From Thermococcus bergensis (lineage in GTDB: Archaea; Methanobacteriota_B; Thermococci; Thermococcales; Thermococcaceae): a DNA stretch of 64,000 nucleotides. Location: NCBI RefSeq assembly GCF_020386975.1, contig NZ_JABFNK010000005.1:558001-622000 (forward strand), read 5' to 3'. The notes below the pieces were generated by a model. It saw nothing but the letters and a program-made list of their open reading frames with translations. It made no database searches and was not told the origin of the DNA. The translations under genes were made by a program, and so were the position numbers. This document shows, in pieces, positions 3,001-42,239 of the stretch (position 1 is its first letter; each line of letters starts with the position of its first letter).

Positions 3001-6000
3001 GTAGATATTCCACCAGAACTCTTTGCAGCACCAAAAGAAGTCTTAGCTGCCTATCTCAGGGGAGTTTTTGATTGTGACGGAACTGTGGTTCTAAGAAAGA
3101 GAGGATCATCGTACATAGAGTTGGACACTACAAGTGAAAAGCTTGCTAAAAAGATTCAGCTGGCACTTCTTCGCTTTGGTATAGTCTCCCACTTAAGGAA
3201 GAGAAACAGAAAAGGATACGTTAGTGAGATAAACGGAAAAAGAGTTATTTCTAAACACGATAGATGGGAGCTCAAGGTATATGGTGAAAACATCATTCAC
3301 TTTGCGAGGGAAATTGGGTTTGAACATCCCGAGAAGAAAGCCCGCCTTGAAGAATTGGTTAGAAAGCTAAGAGCCTCAAAAAGAGACACTAACATCGACG
3401 TTGTTCCTGGTATCGGAGGCTTGCTCCGGAAGATAAGAACCTTCTATGGAATGGGCATTGAAGAAACCTACGGCACAAACTTTGGCTCCGCCATTGAGCA
3501 TGGACGTCCAATATCAAGAAGACTCCTCAAAAGGGTTCTTAGGAACCTTGAGAAAGCTGATATCGAGAGAGTTCCCGTCGAACTGCCCAATGGGCTCAGG
3601 GTTAGAATTGGTGAAGTTATAGAACCAAAAGAAATCGGGCTTAAGAGAGAAGAGTTTTACGAGCTGTTCAAGAGGAATAGAAGTAGAAAAATAGACTACG
3701 CACTCCTTGTAAAAGTTGCAAGAGCCCTTGCAGAGAGAGATGAAAAAGCGTACAGAGAGCTTGTCTGGATTTTAAGCGACGTGACTGCAAAGGAAATGGA
3801 GATACGCGAGAAAATAGAGTTCCTCAGAAAGCTTGTTAACTCGGAGTTGCTCTTTGAGAGAGTCACTGAGAGCAAGAGAATAAAAAGTCTTTACGAATAC
3901 GTCTATGATATCACCGTTGAAGGTTCCCACAGCTTTATTGCTAACGGATTCGTAGTTCACAATACAGCTGCCGCAGTGAGGGATGAATTAACAGGCTCTT
4001 GGGTATTGGAGGCTGGAGTTCTTGTTTTAGCGGATATGGGCATAGCATGTCTTCATCCAGATTCGAGAGTGCTTGTGAACGGCAAATACCTTCCAATAAA
4101 AGAGTTATTTAATGAGGCAAAGTCCTACAAAGCCAAATCTAACGGTGAGATAGTGGATATTCAGGAAGATACTTTCGAAGTTGTCTCATTAAACCTTGAA
4201 AGAATGAAAACTGGTAACTCTTTGGCCACAATCATCAGGAGGAAACAATGGAAAGGAGAACTCGTTAAGCTAAAATTCCGCTCGGGTAATGAACTCCTTC
4301 TTACCCCTGACCACTGGCTCATTGATGGTAAAACATTAGAATGGAAAGAAGCGGGAGAGTTTAAACCGGGTGATACGGTCGTTGCTCCTCTCAAACTCCC
4401 AGAGGTGAAGGAGAAAATCCACATCCTTGACATACTTCCTGAAAACTGGCGGGTTAAATTAACCAAGGAAGAAAAAGAAGAGCTAAGAAAAGAAGTTCTT
4501 AGAAGATTCAAGTCTATTGCAGAATTCAACAGGCACTACGGTATTTCAAAAGACTTCCTATCTGGGAGAGGAGCTATAAAGGTTGGCAAGTTCAGGAAAA
4601 TACTCAAAGATTTCGGCATTTACGAAAAATGGAAGAAGCGTCCCCTGGCTTATGGGCCATATTCAAGAAGAGAAAAGCTTAAGGTCGCATATATAACTCC
4701 AGAAATGGCCTATTTCTTTGGATTTCTGTACGGAGACGGGTGGATTCAAAGAATTGGAGATAGGGTAACACTGCGGATAACCCAATCACTTGTCAATGAA
4801 AAACAGCTCAAAAGGTTAAGAGAGAGTTTTGCATTATTTTATCCCAAAAAACTCAGAGAGTACAGGAGAACTACGTCGAGCATCTTGGCAGGGAACAAAA
4901 TCTCGAGTGAAAGCATAATCTTCTCAGTAAATTCTCCTCTTCTCGGCTACATCTACGAGTACCTCACAAAAGACAATCTAACGAACCTCTTTGGGCTAGA
5001 TGATGAGGCACTTAAAGCATTTGTTGCAGGGGCTCTGGACTCAGACGGTTGTGTATCAATAAAGCGGAGTGATAAAGGAGAAGTTGTCCACGTGGAATTC
5101 CTCCTATCTAATGATATCAGGAAAGATAATGCCTTTGCCATGCTCCTAAGGAGATTTGACGTGTATGCCAGAATTGTAAGAGACAAACGAGAAAACGTTA
5201 ATAGAATACAAATAACCTCTAGGGAGGACGTTAAAAACCTTTTAGAAGCTGTGAAATCTTACAGCATAAAGGTCAAAGAAATCCCTGAAGTTAAACGCCT
5301 TATATCGTCCAAAAGCGACAAATTGCCCTCAGAACCTGTCAAAGAAATTGCGAGGAGGATAAGAGAGGAAATACCAGCTTCAATTCTCCTGAAAAAAGGT
5401 CTTTGGAGTATTATCTATGAGTACTCCAAAGGCATCCGTGTTCCAACTAGGAAACAAATCCATAAACTTCTGGAGAGACTTTCGGATTATCTCAGCCCGG
5501 AAATAAAATTTAAGCTTGAAATCCTAGCAAGAAGAGACTACTTCCTTGACGAAATTGTGGAGGTAGGGAGGATACCATATGAAGGGCATGTTTACGATCT
5601 TTACGTGCCTGTTTATCATAACTTTGTAGCCGAAGGAATAATTGTGCACAACTGCATTGACGAAATAGACAAGATGAGCGATAGGGATAGGAGCTCCATA
5701 CACGAGGCCCTTGAGCAGCAGACCGTTAGTATATCAAAGGCGGGAATCACCGCGACGCTGAACGCAAGAACCACGGTTATAGCCGCGGCCAATCCTAAAT
5801 ATGGAAGGTTCAACAGGATGAAGCCTCTTCCAGAGCAAGTGGACTTGCCTCCAACACTTCTAAGCAGATTTGACCTTATATTCGTTCTTCTCGATGAGCC
5901 AGATGAAAAACTTGACTCTGAGATAGCCGAGCACATACTTAAGGTCAGAAAGGGCGAAGCTGAGGCAATTACTCCGAAGATATCCCACGACCTTATTAAA

Positions 6001-19654: not shown

Positions 19655-20586
19655 ACCCTAGTTCCCATTAGATCGTTAGAGTTATAAGCACTTAAGTCTT
19701 TTGGTTGATTGGTGGTTGTTATGAACTTTCAGCAGGAAATCCTGATCATAAAATCCGAAATCTATCCGATAATCAGCAAACACTACCCGAAAAACACTCA
19801 CAGGGAAATAATCAGCCTCTACGACCTAATAACCTTCGCAATACTAGCACACTTGCACTTTAACGGAGTTTACAAGCACGCTTACAGAGTCCTAATCGAA
19901 GAAATGAAGCTGTTCCCCAAAATCAGGTACAACAAACTAACAGAACGCTTGAACAGGCACGAAAAACTCCTGCTCCTAGCGCAGGAAGAATTATTCAAAA
20001 AACACGCCAGAGAATACGTTAGAATACTGGACTCAAAGCCCATTCAGACCAAGGAGTTGGCCAGAAAAAACAGGAAGGATAAGGAGGGTTCTTCAGAAGT
20101 CATCTCTGAAAAGCCCGCAGTTGGGTTTGTTCCCTCTAAAAAAAGTTTTACTATGGGTACAAGCTGACCTGTTACTCTGATGGAAATTTGCTGGCTTTGC
20201 TGTCCGTTGATCCGGCGAATAAGCATGATGTGAGTGTTGTCAGGGAAAAGTTCTGGGTGATTGTTGAGGAGTTTTCTGGCTGTTTTCTGTTTTTGGATAA
20301 GGGTTACGTTAGTAGAGAACTTCAGGAGGAATTCCTGAAGTTTGGCGTTGTTTACACGCCGGTGAAGCGGGAGAATCAGGTTAGTAATCTGGAGGAGAAG
20401 AAGTTTTACAAGTACTTGTCTGACTTTCGCAGGAGGATTGAGACTTTGTTTTCGAAGTTTTCTGAGTTTCTTCTGAGGCCGAGCAGGAGTGTTAGTTTGA
20501 GGGGGTTAGCTGTCAGGATTTTAGGGGCGATTCTGGCCGTGAATCTGGACAGATTATACAACTTCACAGGTGGTGGGAACTAGGGT
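19655..20586 (+). mobile_element. IS982-family insertion sequence, copy 1
   Basis: A 932-bp element with 13-bp perfect terminal inverted repeats (ACCCTAGTTCCCA at the left, its complement at the right) and a 7-bp target duplication ATTAGCC at 19648-19654 and 20587-20593. The element is identical, by eye, to the copy at 41216-42147. It carries one transposase gene in two frames. It interrupts the cluster of small membrane proteins between the 107-aa and 71-aa genes. The family call rests on protein resemblance to IS982 transposases of Pyrococcus. Confidence 0.93.
19721..20583 (+). pseudogene. IS982-family transposase, split by a -1 frameshift at an A7 run
   Basis: The first frame runs from ATG 19721 to the TGA at 20165-20167. 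It ends shortly after FVPSKKSF. The second frame continues without an ATG as KFYYGYKLTCYSDGNLLALL through the 3' end at 20583. The switch point is a run of seven A (20138-20144): one more A, or a -1 slip, restores a single 288-residue transposase. Catalytic-type segments are ILDSKPI in the first part and LLSVDPANKHD and LFLDKGYVSRELQEEF in the second. Because both copies carry the same A7, the frameshift may be productive (transcriptional slippage or programmed frameshifting) rather than a dead mutation. Confidence 0.85.
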
Positions 20587-37708: not shown

Positions 37709-37754
37709 CTTCACACACCTCCAAAGTTATGCCTAACTCTAATCATCAAAGTGG

Positions 37755-37764
37755 GTTTTTAAAG
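37755..37764 (-). promoter_or_regulatory. TATA box of the EF-1alpha operon
   Basis: CTTTAAAAAC on the minus strand, preceded by AGAAAG as a plausible BRE, about 50 bases before the ATG. Transcription would start near 37735, giving a leader of about 27 bases that contains GGAGGTG. Confidence 0.6.
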
Positions 37765-37781
37765 CTTTCTCTAAACCTCAG

Positions 37782-37818
37782 CTCTCTCACGCGGGAAACC
37801 CGCATCTGTTTGAGAGAG
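37782..37818. repeat. Nested inverted repeat upstream of the EF-1alpha promoter
   Basis: An 8-bp outer arm (CTCTCTCA with TGAGAGAG) encloses a second inner hairpin (GCGGG-AAA-CCCGC). It lies just upstream of the TATA/BRE region, so it would be outside the EF-1alpha transcript; it might be an operator or a terminator for rightward transcription. No function is assigned. Confidence 0.6.
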
Positions 37819-37882
37819 CCTCATGAGTTCATGTTTGGATAAAACCTAGGGTTTAAAAAATTAACTAAAATTATACGGCTCG

Positions 37883-37930
37883 CTGTTAGAATAAGCTAAC
37901 GAATAATATCAGAAACTTTATCCTAACAGT
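37883..37930. repeat. Short imperfect palindrome at the left edge of the RiPP island
   Basis: CTGTTAGAATAA at 37883 is mirrored by TTTATCCTAACAG ending at 37929. A related palindromic stretch occurs at 42182-42239, on the far side of the island. They may be remnants of a small mobile repeat; the similarity (about 70 percent over 50 bases by eye) is suggestive only. Confidence 0.45.
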
Positions 37931-37936
37931 ATTTGA

Positions 37937-37949
37937 TGGGAACTAGGGT
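37937..37949 (-). repeat. Solitary IS982 terminal inverted repeat
   Basis: TGGGAACTAGGGT is identical to the 13-base right end of the two full IS982 copies in this window, but neither the rest of the element nor the other end is present nearby. It is most simply the remnant of a third insertion, located just past the 3' end of the peptidase-like gene. Confidence 0.6.
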
Positions 37950-37979
37950 TCATTTACATAAGCTCTCAATACCCAAAAG

Positions 37980-38558
37980 TTACTTTAATATTTCCACCAA
38001 AAACGCAATCTTATCATTGAAAAACGTATGAATGTTATGAGTCAAAAGTAACTTTAATAAGCTTATGGAGCATGTTTTAAGATTGGATGGATCTAATATT
38101 ATGACTTCGTTCTCTAAGCATATCTCCTTTTTTTCTAAAAATACTCCACATACAGCATGTGAAGCCTCAAAAACACTTTCTCCTTTGTGAAGAAGCAAAA
38201 ATACATATACTTCCCGTTCTGAGAATCCCAGTCCCCTCAATATAGAAGCCTCAAGAATAGAAATTTGAAGACAATTCCCGCATCTTTGGCCTATGGTATT
38301 TAGAGGATGCAACTCATTATTATCTTTAATTGTTATAGTTGGGATGTAGCATATTTCTTTCAGTAGGTCTCTATGTAGCTTTTGAAGTCCTTTTTTATCA
38401 TTCAACTTAATATTAGCAACCAGACGATTTGCAATATCGGGTATAATATACTTTGAAATCGCCAATGGAGGAACTTTGTAAAGTATTATTCTTTGACCAT
38501 TATTGCAAAGAATAACCCTACAAACGTCATCATGGAAGCCGCTAATATAGTCAACCAT
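37980..38558 (-). CDS. Transglutaminase-like Cys-His-Asp protein, putative RiPP leader peptidase
   Basis: A 192-residue protein (numbering from ATG 38558). The core has the order of a transglutaminase/papain-like fold: a Cys in RCGNCLQISILEASILRGLG (Cys96), His in ASHAVCGVFLEKK (His134) and Asp in VIILDPSN (Asp156). This is the triad layout of the B-type cysteine peptidases that cut leader peptides in lasso-peptide clusters. It is the last gene of the minus-strand cluster. The frame is open to ATG 38585; 38558 is favoured because GGAGGGTGG precedes it. Either way the gene overlaps the MFS gene by more than 70 bases, which is unusual; an internal non-ATG start (for example TTG) remains possible. 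Peptidase activity is inference. Confidence 0.6.
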   Translation of the reverse strand: MVDYISGFHDDVCRVILCNNGQRIILYKVPPLAISKYIIPDIANRLVANIKLNDKKGLQKLHRDLLKEICYIPTITIKDNNELHPLNTIGQRCGNCLQISILEASILRGLGFSEREVYVFLLLHKGESVFEASHAVCGVFLEKKEICLENEVIILDPSNLKTCSISLLKLLLTHNIHTFFNDKIAFLVEILK

Positions 38559-39661
38559 GGATCCACCCTCCACAGCGCTCCCCATATTACGGGAGCAAAA
38601 ATCCCAATTAAGCCGGGCAGAGTATTTAATGTGCCATAGGCAGTTGCTAAATACTCTTTTTGATGTTTGGAAGTATAAACGCTATATGCAATGTTTGAGA
38701 GAGCCTCTCCAAAGAGCCCACTTAAAGCCAAGAATATGAGAGAATACGTGGGTGCATATTTGCTTAGGAGAGCAAACAGAGTCATCGTTATGCTATCCCC
38801 GAGGATATCTACAATAAAGGTCTTTTTGGGGCTGAGATAGTCCACCATAAAGCCCGCTACGAAGTACGCTACCAATACGAAAAATCTCGAAGCAGAGAAA
38901 ACATTTACAATTACATCTGAATCGAGTTTCATCCAAGAGTCCAAGTAGGGATAAAGGAAAGTGTTGAAACACGAGCTGATAAATGCAGACAGACAGAAAA
39001 GGAGTGCTAACGGTGCGAGAGGGGTGTTTAACAGTTTTCTGAAGTCAGAATTTTTGATGCTACTTATAATGTTCTTCTTTATCTCTGATGTAACTCCATT
39101 TAATGGACGCTTTTTAGGAAGAGTTTCCACGAGCATCAATCGAAAGAGAGATAAAATAAATAACATCACTAACACGACGTACAAAACATATACAAAACCC
39201 AGCTTTTTAATTATCCAGTTCGTTAACATTGGACCAATAATCCATGCAACTGTGCTGGAGACATGAACCAATGAGAATACCCTACCCCGAATTTTTTCTT
39301 CTGTAGATTCAGCTATAAGTGCTGTAGTACCCGGACTAAAAAAGATTCCTATTGAGTGGAAGAGTATTAATGAAAGCATGATGGCGAGGGGATTTTTCAT
39401 TAAAAGCAGTCCAAGAGTTGGTATCATGCTAAAAACAGACAACACTGCCATGGGTTTTCTCCCGAGACTATCGGCTATTAGTCCTCCAGAAAAGGAAAAG
39501 ATTAAAGATAGGGCACCTGCTATAGACATTGAGAGTGCTAATTCAGAACTTCCCGCTTGATTGTTAACTAGTATAGGTAGGTATATGAAGAAATATGCTC
39601 TCACCATATTGATAGGAAAACCTGTTATTAGAATTATTAAGGGATTGTATTTGGGTTTCAT
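38486..39661 (-). CDS. MFS transporter of the RiPP cluster
   Basis: A 391-residue major facilitator protein with twelve hydrophobic helices, the loop 2-3 motif GGLIADSLGRKPMA and a long central cytoplasmic loop (ETLPKKRPLNGVTSEIKKN). It begins four bases after the radical SAM stop and follows GGTGATG. Its place in the operon suggests export of the mature peptide, or self-protection, but the substrate is not shown by the sequence. Confidence 0.8.
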   Translation of the reverse strand: MKPKYNPLIILITGFPINMVRAYFFIYLPILVNNQAGSSELALSMSIAGALSLIFSFSGGLIADSLGRKPMAVLSVFSMIPTLGLLLMKNPLAIMLSLILFHSIGIFFSPGTTALIAESTEEKIRGRVFSLVHVSSTVAWIIGPMLTNWIIKKLGFVYVLYVVLVMLFILSLFRLMLVETLPKKRPLNGVTSEIKKNIISSIKNSDFRKLLNTPLAPLALLFCLSAFISSCFNTFLYPYLDSWMKLDSDVIVNVFSASRFFVLVAYFVAGFMVDYLSPKKTFIVDILGDSITMTLFALLSKYAPTYSLIFLALSGLFGEALSNIAYSVYTSKHQKEYLATAYGTLNTLPGLIGIFAPVIWGALWRVDPWLTILAASMMTFVGLFFAIMVKE

Positions 39662-39665
39662 TTCA

Positions 39666-40733
39666 TCACCGTAACACTGAAGGATCTATAAATTCATGAG
39701 GAAACACTCCTTCCTCGAACAACTTTTGACATACTGGAAAGGACGCAGTAAATGATTTGTACTCTTCATATGCAAATGCCGGACAAATATTTGCACAGTA
39801 GCTCCTTAGAATACATCCGCTGCAAATTCCTTGAAATTCATCAGGTTTTACTCTACGAAGCTCTCCTAAAAAACCTCTGCCACTATACCATATGTCTCTT
39901 AGGCTCTCTTCTTTTATATTTCCTATCACAGTCTCTGGGTATTCAATTCCTATGCCACATAACGACACTCCTCCATCGGGTAAAATCCCAAGCATTTTTG
40001 TATAGTTGCATGCCATCCTTGAAATGTTTAGGTATCTCCTTCCGTATTTTGCGAGCAGATAATGAGGTACCATAGACCATATTTTGCCAGGATATTTATC
40101 ATATAGCTGGATTAAATACTCTATGAGTGTTTGGTATTGGGAGACAGACAGGGAAATATTATTATGCCTAGCTCGGCCTATTGGGAGTATTGGATTAAAT
40201 TTCACTGCCTTTGCTCCTAAACTCATAATTAAATCCGTTATCTCAAAAATGGAGTGTAAGTTGCGATTGAATACAGAAACTACAACAACTGGGGGTATAC
40301 CTAGATCTCTAAGTTTTGGTATTACATCTAAAACCCTTCTGTATACTCTCTTCCCATGCCTGAACGCATTAAATTCAACTTCTGAGGGAAAATCTAAACT
40401 TAAACTTATGTCGATCTCATATTTTGCGAGCTCTTTTAATAGGGGTGGAGTAATTAGGGTTCCATTGGTTTCCAGCACTGTTTTAACCTTGCTGTTGTTT
40501 GCGACTTTTATAAGGGTTATTGCTAGATCACTTCGCAAAAGAGGTTCTCCTCCAGATATAAAAAGTGTATCAAGACCTAAGTCCAAGGCCTCATTAAAAG
40601 CAATAAGAAAATATTTGTCTTCCAGTTCGACCATAGGATATGTTCTACTAGCATTTATCCAACAGTGCTCACATTGTAGGTTGCATGAACGTGTTAAATA
40701 TACATGCAATATCTCTAGGGGTGGAGCATTCAT
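39666..40733 (-). CDS. Radical SAM/SPASM peptide-modifying enzyme
   Basis: A 355-residue radical SAM protein. The N-terminal CX3CX2C cluster site is TRSCNLQCEHCW (Cys17, 21, 24), followed by the SAM-binding GGEPL (in FISGGEPLLRSDL). The C-terminal SPASM domain has the seven-Cys pattern for auxiliary Fe-S clusters: MACNYTKMLGILPDGGVSLC, then GICSGCILRSYCANIC and a last FPVCQKLFEEG. Enzymes of this design make thioether (sactionine, ranthionine) or carbon-carbon crosslinks in short peptides. It overlaps the upstream RRE gene by 4 bases (ATGA) and has GGAGGC six bases before its ATG. The small Cys-rich gene at 41066-41158 is the obvious substrate. Confidence 0.88.
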   Translation of the reverse strand: MNAPPLEILHVYLTRSCNLQCEHCWINASRTYPMVELEDKYFLIAFNEALDLGLDTLFISGGEPLLRSDLAITLIKVANNSKVKTVLETNGTLITPPLLKELAKYEIDISLSLDFPSEVEFNAFRHGKRVYRRVLDVIPKLRDLGIPPVVVVSVFNRNLHSIFEITDLIMSLGAKAVKFNPILPIGRARHNNISLSVSQYQTLIEYLIQLYDKYPGKIWSMVPHYLLAKYGRRYLNISRMACNYTKMLGILPDGGVSLCGIGIEYPETVIGNIKEESLRDIWYSGRGFLGELRRVKPDEFQGICSGCILRSYCANICPAFAYEEYKSFTASFPVCQKLFEEGVFPHEFIDPSVLR

Positions 40734-41038
40734 TCACATGCCTCCTTATCGTTTTGGAGAAGGCCTAACTTTGACAAATGTTTAATAAACTCTAAAATGT
40801 CTTTGGTTATTATTTCAATGTCAATTTCTTCGTCTATGTCTTTCTTTACGTAATTTGCAATCTCTTTTATAGTTAAAGAGCCATTACTGTACTTTAGGAC
40901 TAACTCCCCCATTTTATTAACCGTAAATATCCTTCCTGTAGAGTAATCATAGCATAATGCATAATCTGAATAAGAAATTATATGGAGTGGTTTTATTTTG
41001 GGCTTATAAAAAGGAGAAAATAGAAGAGACTCTTCCAC
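40730..41038 (-). CDS. PqqD-like RiPP recognition element protein
   Basis: A 102-residue protein with the PqqD pattern: a strand pair (YALCYDYSTGRIFTVNKMGE), a helix-turn stretch (LKYSNGSLTIKEIANYVKKD) and a C-terminal helix (ILEFIKHLSKLGLLQND). Stand-alone PqqD-like proteins bind the leader of the precursor and present it to the radical SAM enzyme. GTG at 41038 follows GGAGGT at 7 bases; an ATG at 41045 in another frame leads only to a 13-codon frame. It lies 27 bases after the precursor gene. Confidence 0.82.
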   Translation of the reverse strand: MEESLLFSPFYKPKIKPLHIISYSDYALCYDYSTGRIFTVNKMGELVLKYSNGSLTIKEIANYVKKDIDEEIDIEIITKDILEFIKHLSKLGLLQNDKEACE

Positions 41039-41065
41039 AGTTCATACCTCCGCTACTGCTTTACT

Positions 41066-41158
41066 TCACGTAACGCTAGGTCCGTTACAACAACCCCCTC
41101 CGGAACATGCCCTAACAATTTTGGTAAGTTCTTCTATTTTCGGCTTTTCATACTTCAT
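41066..41158 (-). CDS. Putative RiPP precursor peptide, 30 residues, Cys/Gly-rich core
   Basis: A very short gene read directly from the minus strand. The charged N-terminal part MKYEKPKIEELTKIVRA looks like a leader helix; the C-terminal part CSGGGCCNGPSVT has three Cys, four Gly and no charged residue, as expected for a modified core. GGAGGTG lies five bases before the ATG, one of the strongest ribosome binding sites in the window, and a PqqD-like gene with a radical SAM/SPASM gene follows at once. The cleavage site is unknown; the boundary near Ala17/Cys18 is a guess from composition. Confidence 0.8.
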   Translation of the reverse strand: MKYEKPKIEELTKIVRACSGGGCCNGPSVT

Positions 41159-41191
41159 CTAACCACCTCCGTTAGTTTTATAATTATTCTA

Positions 41192-41205
41192 TATTATTAT
41201 ATTTA
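41192..41205 (-). promoter_or_regulatory. Probable promoter of the RiPP operon
   Basis: The minus strand upstream of the precursor is very AT-rich (AAATATAATAATATAG). A TATA box here would start transcription near 41170-41175, leaving a leader that holds the GGAGGTG site. The IS982 copy begins about ten bases further upstream at 41216, in or next to where a BRE would lie, so the insertion may have changed promoter strength. A second TATA-like ATTATAAAAC (41174-41183) would start too close to the ATG. Confidence 0.4.
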
Positions 41206-41215
41206 TTTTTTTTGT

Positions 41216-42147
41216 ACCCTAGTTCCCATTAGATCGTTAGAGTTATAAGCACTTAAGTCTTTTGGTTGATTGGTGGTTGTTATGAACTTTCAGCAGGAAA
41301 TCCTGATCATAAAATCCGAAATCTATCCGATAATCAGCAAACACTACCCGAAAAACACTCACAGGGAAATAATCAGCCTCTACGACCTAATAACCTTCGC
41401 AATACTAGCACACTTGCACTTTAACGGAGTTTACAAGCACGCTTACAGAGTCCTAATCGAAGAAATGAAGCTGTTCCCCAAAATCAGGTACAACAAACTA
41501 ACAGAACGCTTGAACAGGCACGAAAAACTCCTGCTCCTAGCGCAGGAAGAATTATTCAAAAAACACGCCAGAGAATACGTTAGAATACTGGACTCAAAGC
41601 CCATTCAGACCAAGGAGTTGGCCAGAAAAAACAGGAAGGATAAGGAGGGTTCTTCAGAAGTCATCTCTGAAAAGCCCGCAGTTGGGTTTGTTCCCTCTAA
41701 AAAAAGTTTTACTATGGGTACAAGCTGACCTGTTACTCTGATGGAAATTTGCTGGCTTTGCTGTCCGTTGATCCGGCGAATAAGCATGATGTGAGTGTTG
41801 TCAGGGAAAAGTTCTGGGTGATTGTTGAGGAGTTTTCTGGCTGTTTTCTGTTTTTGGATAAGGGTTACGTTAGTAGAGAACTTCAGGAGGAATTCCTGAA
41901 GTTTGGCGTTGTTTACACGCCGGTGAAGCGGGAGAATCAGGTTAGTAATCTGGAGGAGAAGAAGTTTTACAAGTACTTGTCTGACTTTCGCAGGAGGATT
42001 GAGACTTTGTTTTCGAAGTTTTCTGAGTTTCTTCTGAGGCCGAGCAGGAGTGTTAGTTTGAGGGGGTTAGCTGTCAGGATTTTAGGGGCGATTCTGGCCG
42101 TGAATCTGGACAGATTATACAACTTCACAGGTGGTGGGAACTAGGGT
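41216..42147 (+). mobile_element. IS982-family insertion sequence, copy 2
   Basis: A 932-bp element, identical by eye to copy 1, with the same 13-bp inverted ends and a 7-bp target duplication TTTTTGT (41209-41215 and 42148-42154). It lies 57 bases upstream of the precursor peptide start and points away from it. Perfect identity of the two copies and intact target duplications point to recent transposition. Confidence 0.93.
41282..42144 (+). pseudogene. IS982-family transposase, copy 2, same A7 frameshift
   Basis: Same gene as in copy 1, with the first frame ending at 41728 and the second continuing to 42144. The frame break is again at seven A (41699-41705). Restoring one A gives SKKKFYYGYKLTCYSD across the join. 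See copy 1 for motifs. Confidence 0.85.
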
Positions 42148-42181
42148 TTTTTGTTAACTTTTAGTTGTTAACTTTTAGAAT

Positions 42182-42239
42182 ACTGTTAAGATAAGCTGAT
42201 GGGCAATACTAGAAGTCTTGCTTAATATTCTAAACAGTG
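42182..42239. repeat. Short imperfect palindrome on the right side of the RiPP island
   Basis: ACTGTTAAGATAAGC is mirrored imperfectly by the stretch ending ATATTCTAAACAGT. It resembles the palindrome at 37883-37930 in both arms. Just before it, TTGTTAACTTTTAG is repeated twice in tandem (42151-42178). The 300-base gap 42155-42461 otherwise holds no convincing gene. Confidence 0.4.

Follow-up and report, generated by a model that had tools for sequence, protein, structure and literature searches.

A candidate precursor gene for a radical-SAM-modified peptide in a recently spread cassette of Thermococcus bergensis

In the stretch of Thermococcus bergensis DNA analyzed here, 64,000 nucleotides in full length and hereafter called the window, a 30-codon reading frame stands in front of genes for a PqqD-like protein and a radical SAM enzyme. 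A preliminary description proposed that the frame encodes a peptide precursor whose cysteines would be joined to nearby residues by a SPASM enzyme, and that it may define a family of its own. The locus raises two questions: is so short a frame a gene at all, and what would its neighbors make of its product?

A short frame with a charged leader and a cysteine-bearing core

The frame occupies positions 41066–41158 on the minus strand, exactly as first described, and its translation (window 41158–41066) is MKYEKPKIEELTKIVRACSGGGCCNGPSVT. Frame, Shine–Dalgarno, codon and motif analyses point to a 30-residue precursor composed of a probable leader (residues 1–17) and a core (C18–T30). The charged leader and uncharged, three-cysteine core of the preliminary description are both present. 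Eight leader residues are charged (K2, E4, K5, K7, E9, E10, K13 and R16), and residues 3–8, YEKPKI, form a YxxPxI motif; the last 13 residues, CSGGGCCNGPSVT, contain three cysteines and carry zero charge. Preceded by an alanine, the core is laid out as CSGG-G-CCNG-PSVT, and it is devoid of aromatic residues.

The signals in front of the frame are unusually strong for this window. A Shine–Dalgarno sequence, GGAGGTG (41164–41170, minus strand; read from the sequence), ends 5 nt before the ATG, at the proper distance that had been claimed for it. This seven-base match is the sole case among the 1510 possible frames of 20–60 residues in the window, and the combination of a match of at least six bases with three cysteines in the last 15 residues likewise occurs in this frame alone. 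Markov-shuffled versions of the window produced a mean of 0.03 frames that unite a match of at least seven bases with three such cysteines. Codon log-odds amount to +4.3 in the proposed frame and are negative in the other frames tried, a weak test for 30 codons. Farther upstream, a candidate TATA box, TAAATATAA (41197–41206, minus strand), accompanied by an upstream purine-rich tract, was picked out by eye and from sequence only. In the window genome alone, a 930 bp IS982-family element (41217–42146, plus strand), whose transposase is split in two frames (41270–42144), sits upstream of the precursor, 58 bp from its ATG. Since the candidate TATA box was left in place by this insertion, the precursor promoter may survive it. 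A second IS982-family copy, also of 930 bp and 100% identical, lies at 19656–20585.

Searches of Pfam and NCBIfam with the peptide returned zero matches, and no described precursor family resembles it in these searches. ScmA (TIGR04252), the peptide model of the SynChlorMet system, did not match it at E values up to 10, and an ScmA search of genome G000 found none. Taken together, the 30-residue gene, liable to be missed by standard annotation, is very probably a real precursor gene, and we infer that it is translated.

The operon, its relatives and known systems

Five genes follow one another on the minus strand, in the order precursor, PqqD, radical SAM/SPASM, MFS and a 201-residue protein. 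Their successive spacing (a 27 bp gap, a 4 bp overlap, a 4 bp gap and a 100 bp overlap) makes an operon likely, and the downstream PqqD/radical SAM pair invoked in the preliminary description is real by Pfam and NCBIfam profile matches. The first partner (40730–41038, minus strand) is a PqqD-family RiPP recognition element (RRE) of 102 residues with a GTG start, matching PF05402 at 26.9 bits (cut-off 23.4); its best named relative is ScmD, at 25.3 bits and below the cut-off of 100. A structure model of this protein was built from one sequence and is of low confidence (pLDDT 57); its top five Foldseek hits are nevertheless to the lasso RRE TbiB1, in complex with leader peptide, and to 5why, a sactipeptide enzyme, none of them reaching E 0.001. 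VIA-align placed an unrelated Dsb protein first for the same model (Z 5.0), ahead of a lasso B1 protein (Z 4.0) and PqqD (3.9), a ranking that is not decisive.

The second partner is a radical SAM/SPASM peptide maturase of 355 residues (39666–40733, minus strand). Its ten cysteines are exactly those of a CX3CX2C motif (residues 17–24) and a complete seven-cysteine SPASM motif (residues 242–335). ScmF is its best NCBIfam match (171.8 bits, cut-off 400), and its further matches, among them PapB, AlbA, StsB, mycofactocin and heme-type models, do not come near their cut-offs either. In the PDB, sequence comparison links it to PqqE, to SkfB, to a cytosylglucuronate decarboxylase and to 5wgg/5why, a thioether-forming enzyme. 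The third partner, an exporter-like MFS transporter of 391 residues (38486–39661, minus strand), scores 114.6 bits with PF07690 and has Tet/MdtH-type matches. Three of the four partners are thereby placed in families. The fourth, the 201-residue protein (37980–38585, minus strand; start codon uncertain), which accounts for the 100 bp overlap with the MFS gene, is a probable transglutaminase-like cysteine peptidase: it scores 19.6 bits with PF01841, below the cut-off of 23, and Cys105, His143 and Asp165 stand, by eye, in the order of transglutaminase-like peptidases. Its structure model (pLDDT 37) was discarded.

A distant relative of this cassette is found in G113, a genome of the same class (L020 7121–9749), where a ScmA-like peptide ending in -GGFVY is followed by PqqD, a ScmE-like radical SAM gene and a ScmF-like radical SAM gene. 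The ScmF-like enzyme is 32% identical to that of the window, and the first radical SAM enzyme has a mycofactocin maturase as its top named match, in a near tie. A gene for an HprK-like kinase lies near the G113 cassette, at 4890–5735. Read from a GTG behind GGAGGTGA, the G113 peptide is MYKPPMMVDLISPDKMVANTCSNGSGSDNSCSNGDDGGFVY, with the pattern MYKPPMMVDL...TCSNG...SCSNG.... It shares with the window peptide both YxxPx[IM]x[ED]L in the leader and [AT]CS[NG]G in the core. The local alignment score of the two, 36, was reached by 65 of 20,000 shuffles, and among the 235 small frames of the G113 locus it is the G113 peptide with which the window peptide scores best. Each contains exactly two CxxG motifs (CSGG and CCNG in the window, CSNG twice in G113), an outcome expected by chance, given core composition, in 14% of shuffles of the window core and 3.5% of those for G113. 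The idea that the precursor forms its own family therefore holds insofar as no named family matches it, but it now has a distant relative in a similar gene order.

How, then, does the cassette relate to described systems? One of the closest is SynChlorMet (NCBIfam TIGR04248–TIGR04252: ScmA, ScmC, ScmD, ScmE and ScmF), which shares a short cysteine-containing peptide in front and supplies the best matches, ScmF and ScmD, of the window proteins. Those scores are far below cut-off, however, and the peptide has no ScmA match; moreover, neither ScmE, the second radical SAM enzyme, nor ScmC was found in the operon, which has the MFS and peptidase-like genes instead. The G113 peptide itself matches ScmA weakly (18.3 bits, cut-off 35). 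Over the phylum, the ScmA model gave nothing above cut-off, a scan that is uninformative because weak matches also appear in 7 of 14 control genomes. We read the window and G113 cassettes as distant branches of one group, G113 standing beside the SynChlorMet definition and the window outside it. By sequence comparison, the window cassette is distant to SynChlorMet, below all of its family cut-offs, with extra lasso-like features.

Those features recall the front end of lasso peptide and LPP pathways, in which a B1 RRE acts with a B2 cysteine peptidase: the window likewise combines a discrete RRE with a YxxPxI leader and what is probably a cysteine peptidase (PMC13381572). Unlike lasso operons, it encodes a radical SAM enzyme, and a lasso cyclase (asparagine-synthetase-like) domain is absent from its four partner proteins; neither NCBIfam nor Pfam gave a match between lasso B2 models and the peptidase-like protein. 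SCIFF peptides and other ranthipeptides (CteA, PapA) also present a cysteine-bearing peptide to a SPASM enzyme. In that system CteB carries the RRE, whereas the window has a separate RRE protein. The window peptide has three cysteines rather than six, no CX3D motif and no match to these families in NCBIfam, so that the preliminary judgment of a non-SCIFF pattern stands.

Distribution and recent movement of the cassette

The peptide is encoded in 4 of 115 genomes of the phylum, which are 4 of the 94 genomes of the family, and all four carriers, one of them a MAG (Thermococcales archaeon 44_46), belong to one genus. They are exactly the genomes that hold the full, intact cassette. Conservation of the peptide wherever the downstream genes are intact, on which the earlier proposal hinged, is thus found in all four, at 100% identity. 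The four peptide genes are identical at the DNA level, as are the Shine–Dalgarno sequence and some 50 bp upstream. From about 37,850 to 41,215 only two sites vary among the carriers, one at 40603, a difference of Ile (window) against Asn in the enzyme, and one at 38538, where the transporter and peptidase-like genes overlap. The flanks of the cassette are only about 85–95% identical (5–15% divergence), and the identical tract ends at a different point in each genome pair. The cassette site lies between the EF-1-alpha gene, with its SscA RNA, and the conserved sequence that comes next; in seven related genomes it is empty. The near-identical cassette, the diverged flanks and the seven empty sites together indicate that the cassette has moved recently across species lines, and its spread was probably accompanied by recombination in the flanks.

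The base composition and boundaries fit an island. G+C is 36.9% in the cassette (about 37% over 37880–41215) and 44.0% in the window; together with the empty sites and the identity tract, this delimits a horizontally spread, unstranded island at 37880–42230, with approximate edges. The insertion point lies immediately beyond the SscA RNA. This RNA (RF00063, 65.7 bits) was located at 37731–37831 on the minus strand, a short way upstream of EF-1-alpha. A solitary IS982-type end, GGGAACTAGGG (37938–37948), lies at the left edge of the cassette, inside the stretch that the other carriers share without a difference, and is a possible relic of island mobilization. A composite-transposon origin was considered, and the second intact IS end looked for in this connection was not found.

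A decayed copy outside the genus informs on the selective history of the cassette. G016, from another genus, retains two fragments at 91–92% DNA identity near two contig ends (L021 9626–10225 and L068 9175–9663): a frame-broken portion of the radical SAM gene, and the greater part of the gene for the peptidase-like protein, adjoining what looks by eye like IS200/IS605-type sequence. Neither the peptide nor PqqD was found in this genome. Against the window, the fragments show dS of 0.16–0.39 and dN/dS of 0.17–0.24. A ratio of about 0.2 shows that purifying selection acted on the enzyme and the peptidase-like protein during much of the divergence, part of which may postdate the decay in G016, and the same comparison supports the 201-residue frame as a genuine cassette gene.

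Wider searches extended this distribution little. A radical SAM search of genome contigs recovered the MAG copy only; viral contigs gave none at first and then three remote matches of 20–28%. Plasmids yielded remote enzymes only, nearly all in Rhizobium, and none of the peptidase-like protein. A radical SAM gene on Rhizobium plasmids (L059 5890–9219) shares about 34% identity with the ScmF-like enzyme of G113 and lies beside uncharacterized genes. A profile of the two peptides was run over the phylum; apart from the five loci already known, no match was better than E 0.03. Five of its matches (L074, L075, L079, L084 and L085) were inspected and did not resemble precursors.

Putative chemistry and role of the product

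We hold with strong confidence that the short frame encodes the precursor of a radical-SAM RiPP, and an outline of precursor, RRE, radical SAM enzyme and export, leaving ring sites aside, is quite likely. The leader supplies the first step of this outline. Discrete lasso-peptide RREs recognize the motif [Y/W]xxPx[L/V/I/F/A]; for LPP peptides, YxxP was shown to be indispensable to RRE binding, and it is the RRE that brings the precursor to a leader peptidase (PMC13381572). YEKPKI (Y3-E-K-P6-K-I8) fits this motif (PMC13381572). The discrete PqqD-like RRE would grip the leader through Y3-x-x-P6-x-I8 and hand the core on to the radical SAM/SPASM maturase, which would close Cys-to-carbon thioethers after hydrogen abstraction at an acceptor residue. 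The transglutaminase-like cysteine peptidase would then cut off the leader, and the MFS protein would export a product of 12–14 residues.

That the product carries thioether crosslinks at all is reasonably probable. The comparison that suggests where they would lie is streptosactin, a 14-residue sactipeptide with alpha-thioethers between Cys25 and Ser28 and between Cys31 and Gly34, each from a cysteine to the i+3 position (PMC8172795). Like the window system, this type II sactipeptide (GggA/GggB) combines a short core and unnested CxxS/CxxG spacing with a SPASM enzyme and a separate protease; it differs in being bacterial and regulated by quorum sensing, with a discrete PqqD not mentioned (PMC8172795). 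The window peptide and the G113 peptide each have two streptosactin-like i+3 spacings to glycine, and the likeliest rings would accordingly be Cys18–Gly21 and Cys23–Gly26, two unnested CxxG rings that leave Cys24 free. These particular rings are a tentative proposal from spacing. The preliminary description had named Asn, Ser, Val and Thr as acceptors, whereas the G113 peptide and the streptosactin comparison favor glycine at i+3.

Among the alternatives, a radical-SAM RiPP of other chemistry survives best, as a possible though rather unlikely outcome. It comprises C-beta or C-gamma thioethers of the ranthipeptide type, C–C links, epimerization, and thioethers to Asn25, Ser28, Val29 or Thr30. 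All of these reactions are known from SPASM enzymes, and the mixed NCBIfam matches of the window enzyme would suit any of them. The core nevertheless makes some variants harder to sustain, since Tyr/Trp cyclophanes are unlikely in a peptide with no aromatic residue there and the CX3D of freyrasin-type peptides is absent; the CxxG common to both peptides also speaks for the glycine rings, although no point is decisive. It is improbable that the peptide is instead a metal-binder or the precursor of a redox cofactor for the producer rather than an exported antagonist. Metal binding is conceivable for the C18...C23-C24 pattern, cofactors such as PQQ and mycofactocin are likewise products of PqqD/SPASM pairs, and the G113 system, with its -FVY peptide terminus and the near-tied mycofactocin match of its first enzyme, leans the same way. 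Against this, the operon holds an exporter-like MFS gene and no oxidoreductase, and a recently spread cassette in 4 of 94 family genomes is unlike a core cofactor. It is very improbable that the frame is spurious or regulatory, for instance translated as a leader to PqqD, and that the true precursor lies elsewhere or does not exist: the frame has only 30 codons and its four copies give no substitution pattern, but it has the top Shine–Dalgarno sequence among small frames of the window together with three cysteines and an RRE motif, and G113 has a similar peptide with its own strong Shine–Dalgarno sequence ahead of PqqD.

The preferred reading, a radical-SAM RiPP with glycine-centered thioether rings, can be carried through to a role. 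Mobility of the cassette between species fits an antagonistic or signaling peptide, and the picture in full would be of a short hyperthermophile sactipeptide with two CxxG rings, made by a lasso-type front end joined to a SPASM enzyme, spreading horizontally and used among Thermococcales as a weapon or signal that withstands heat; the conjunction of all these parts is unlikely to be right in every particular. Radical-SAM-modified peptides have already been predicted in archaea, and a 2025 survey, which characterizes lanthipeptides, sees the obstacle in how few archaeal products have been identified (PMC12144867). Here the precursor is pinned down with all of its partner genes in an operon of about 3.2 kb, small enough for in vitro reconstitution, and its recent passage from one species to another opens a role in competition to direct testing.
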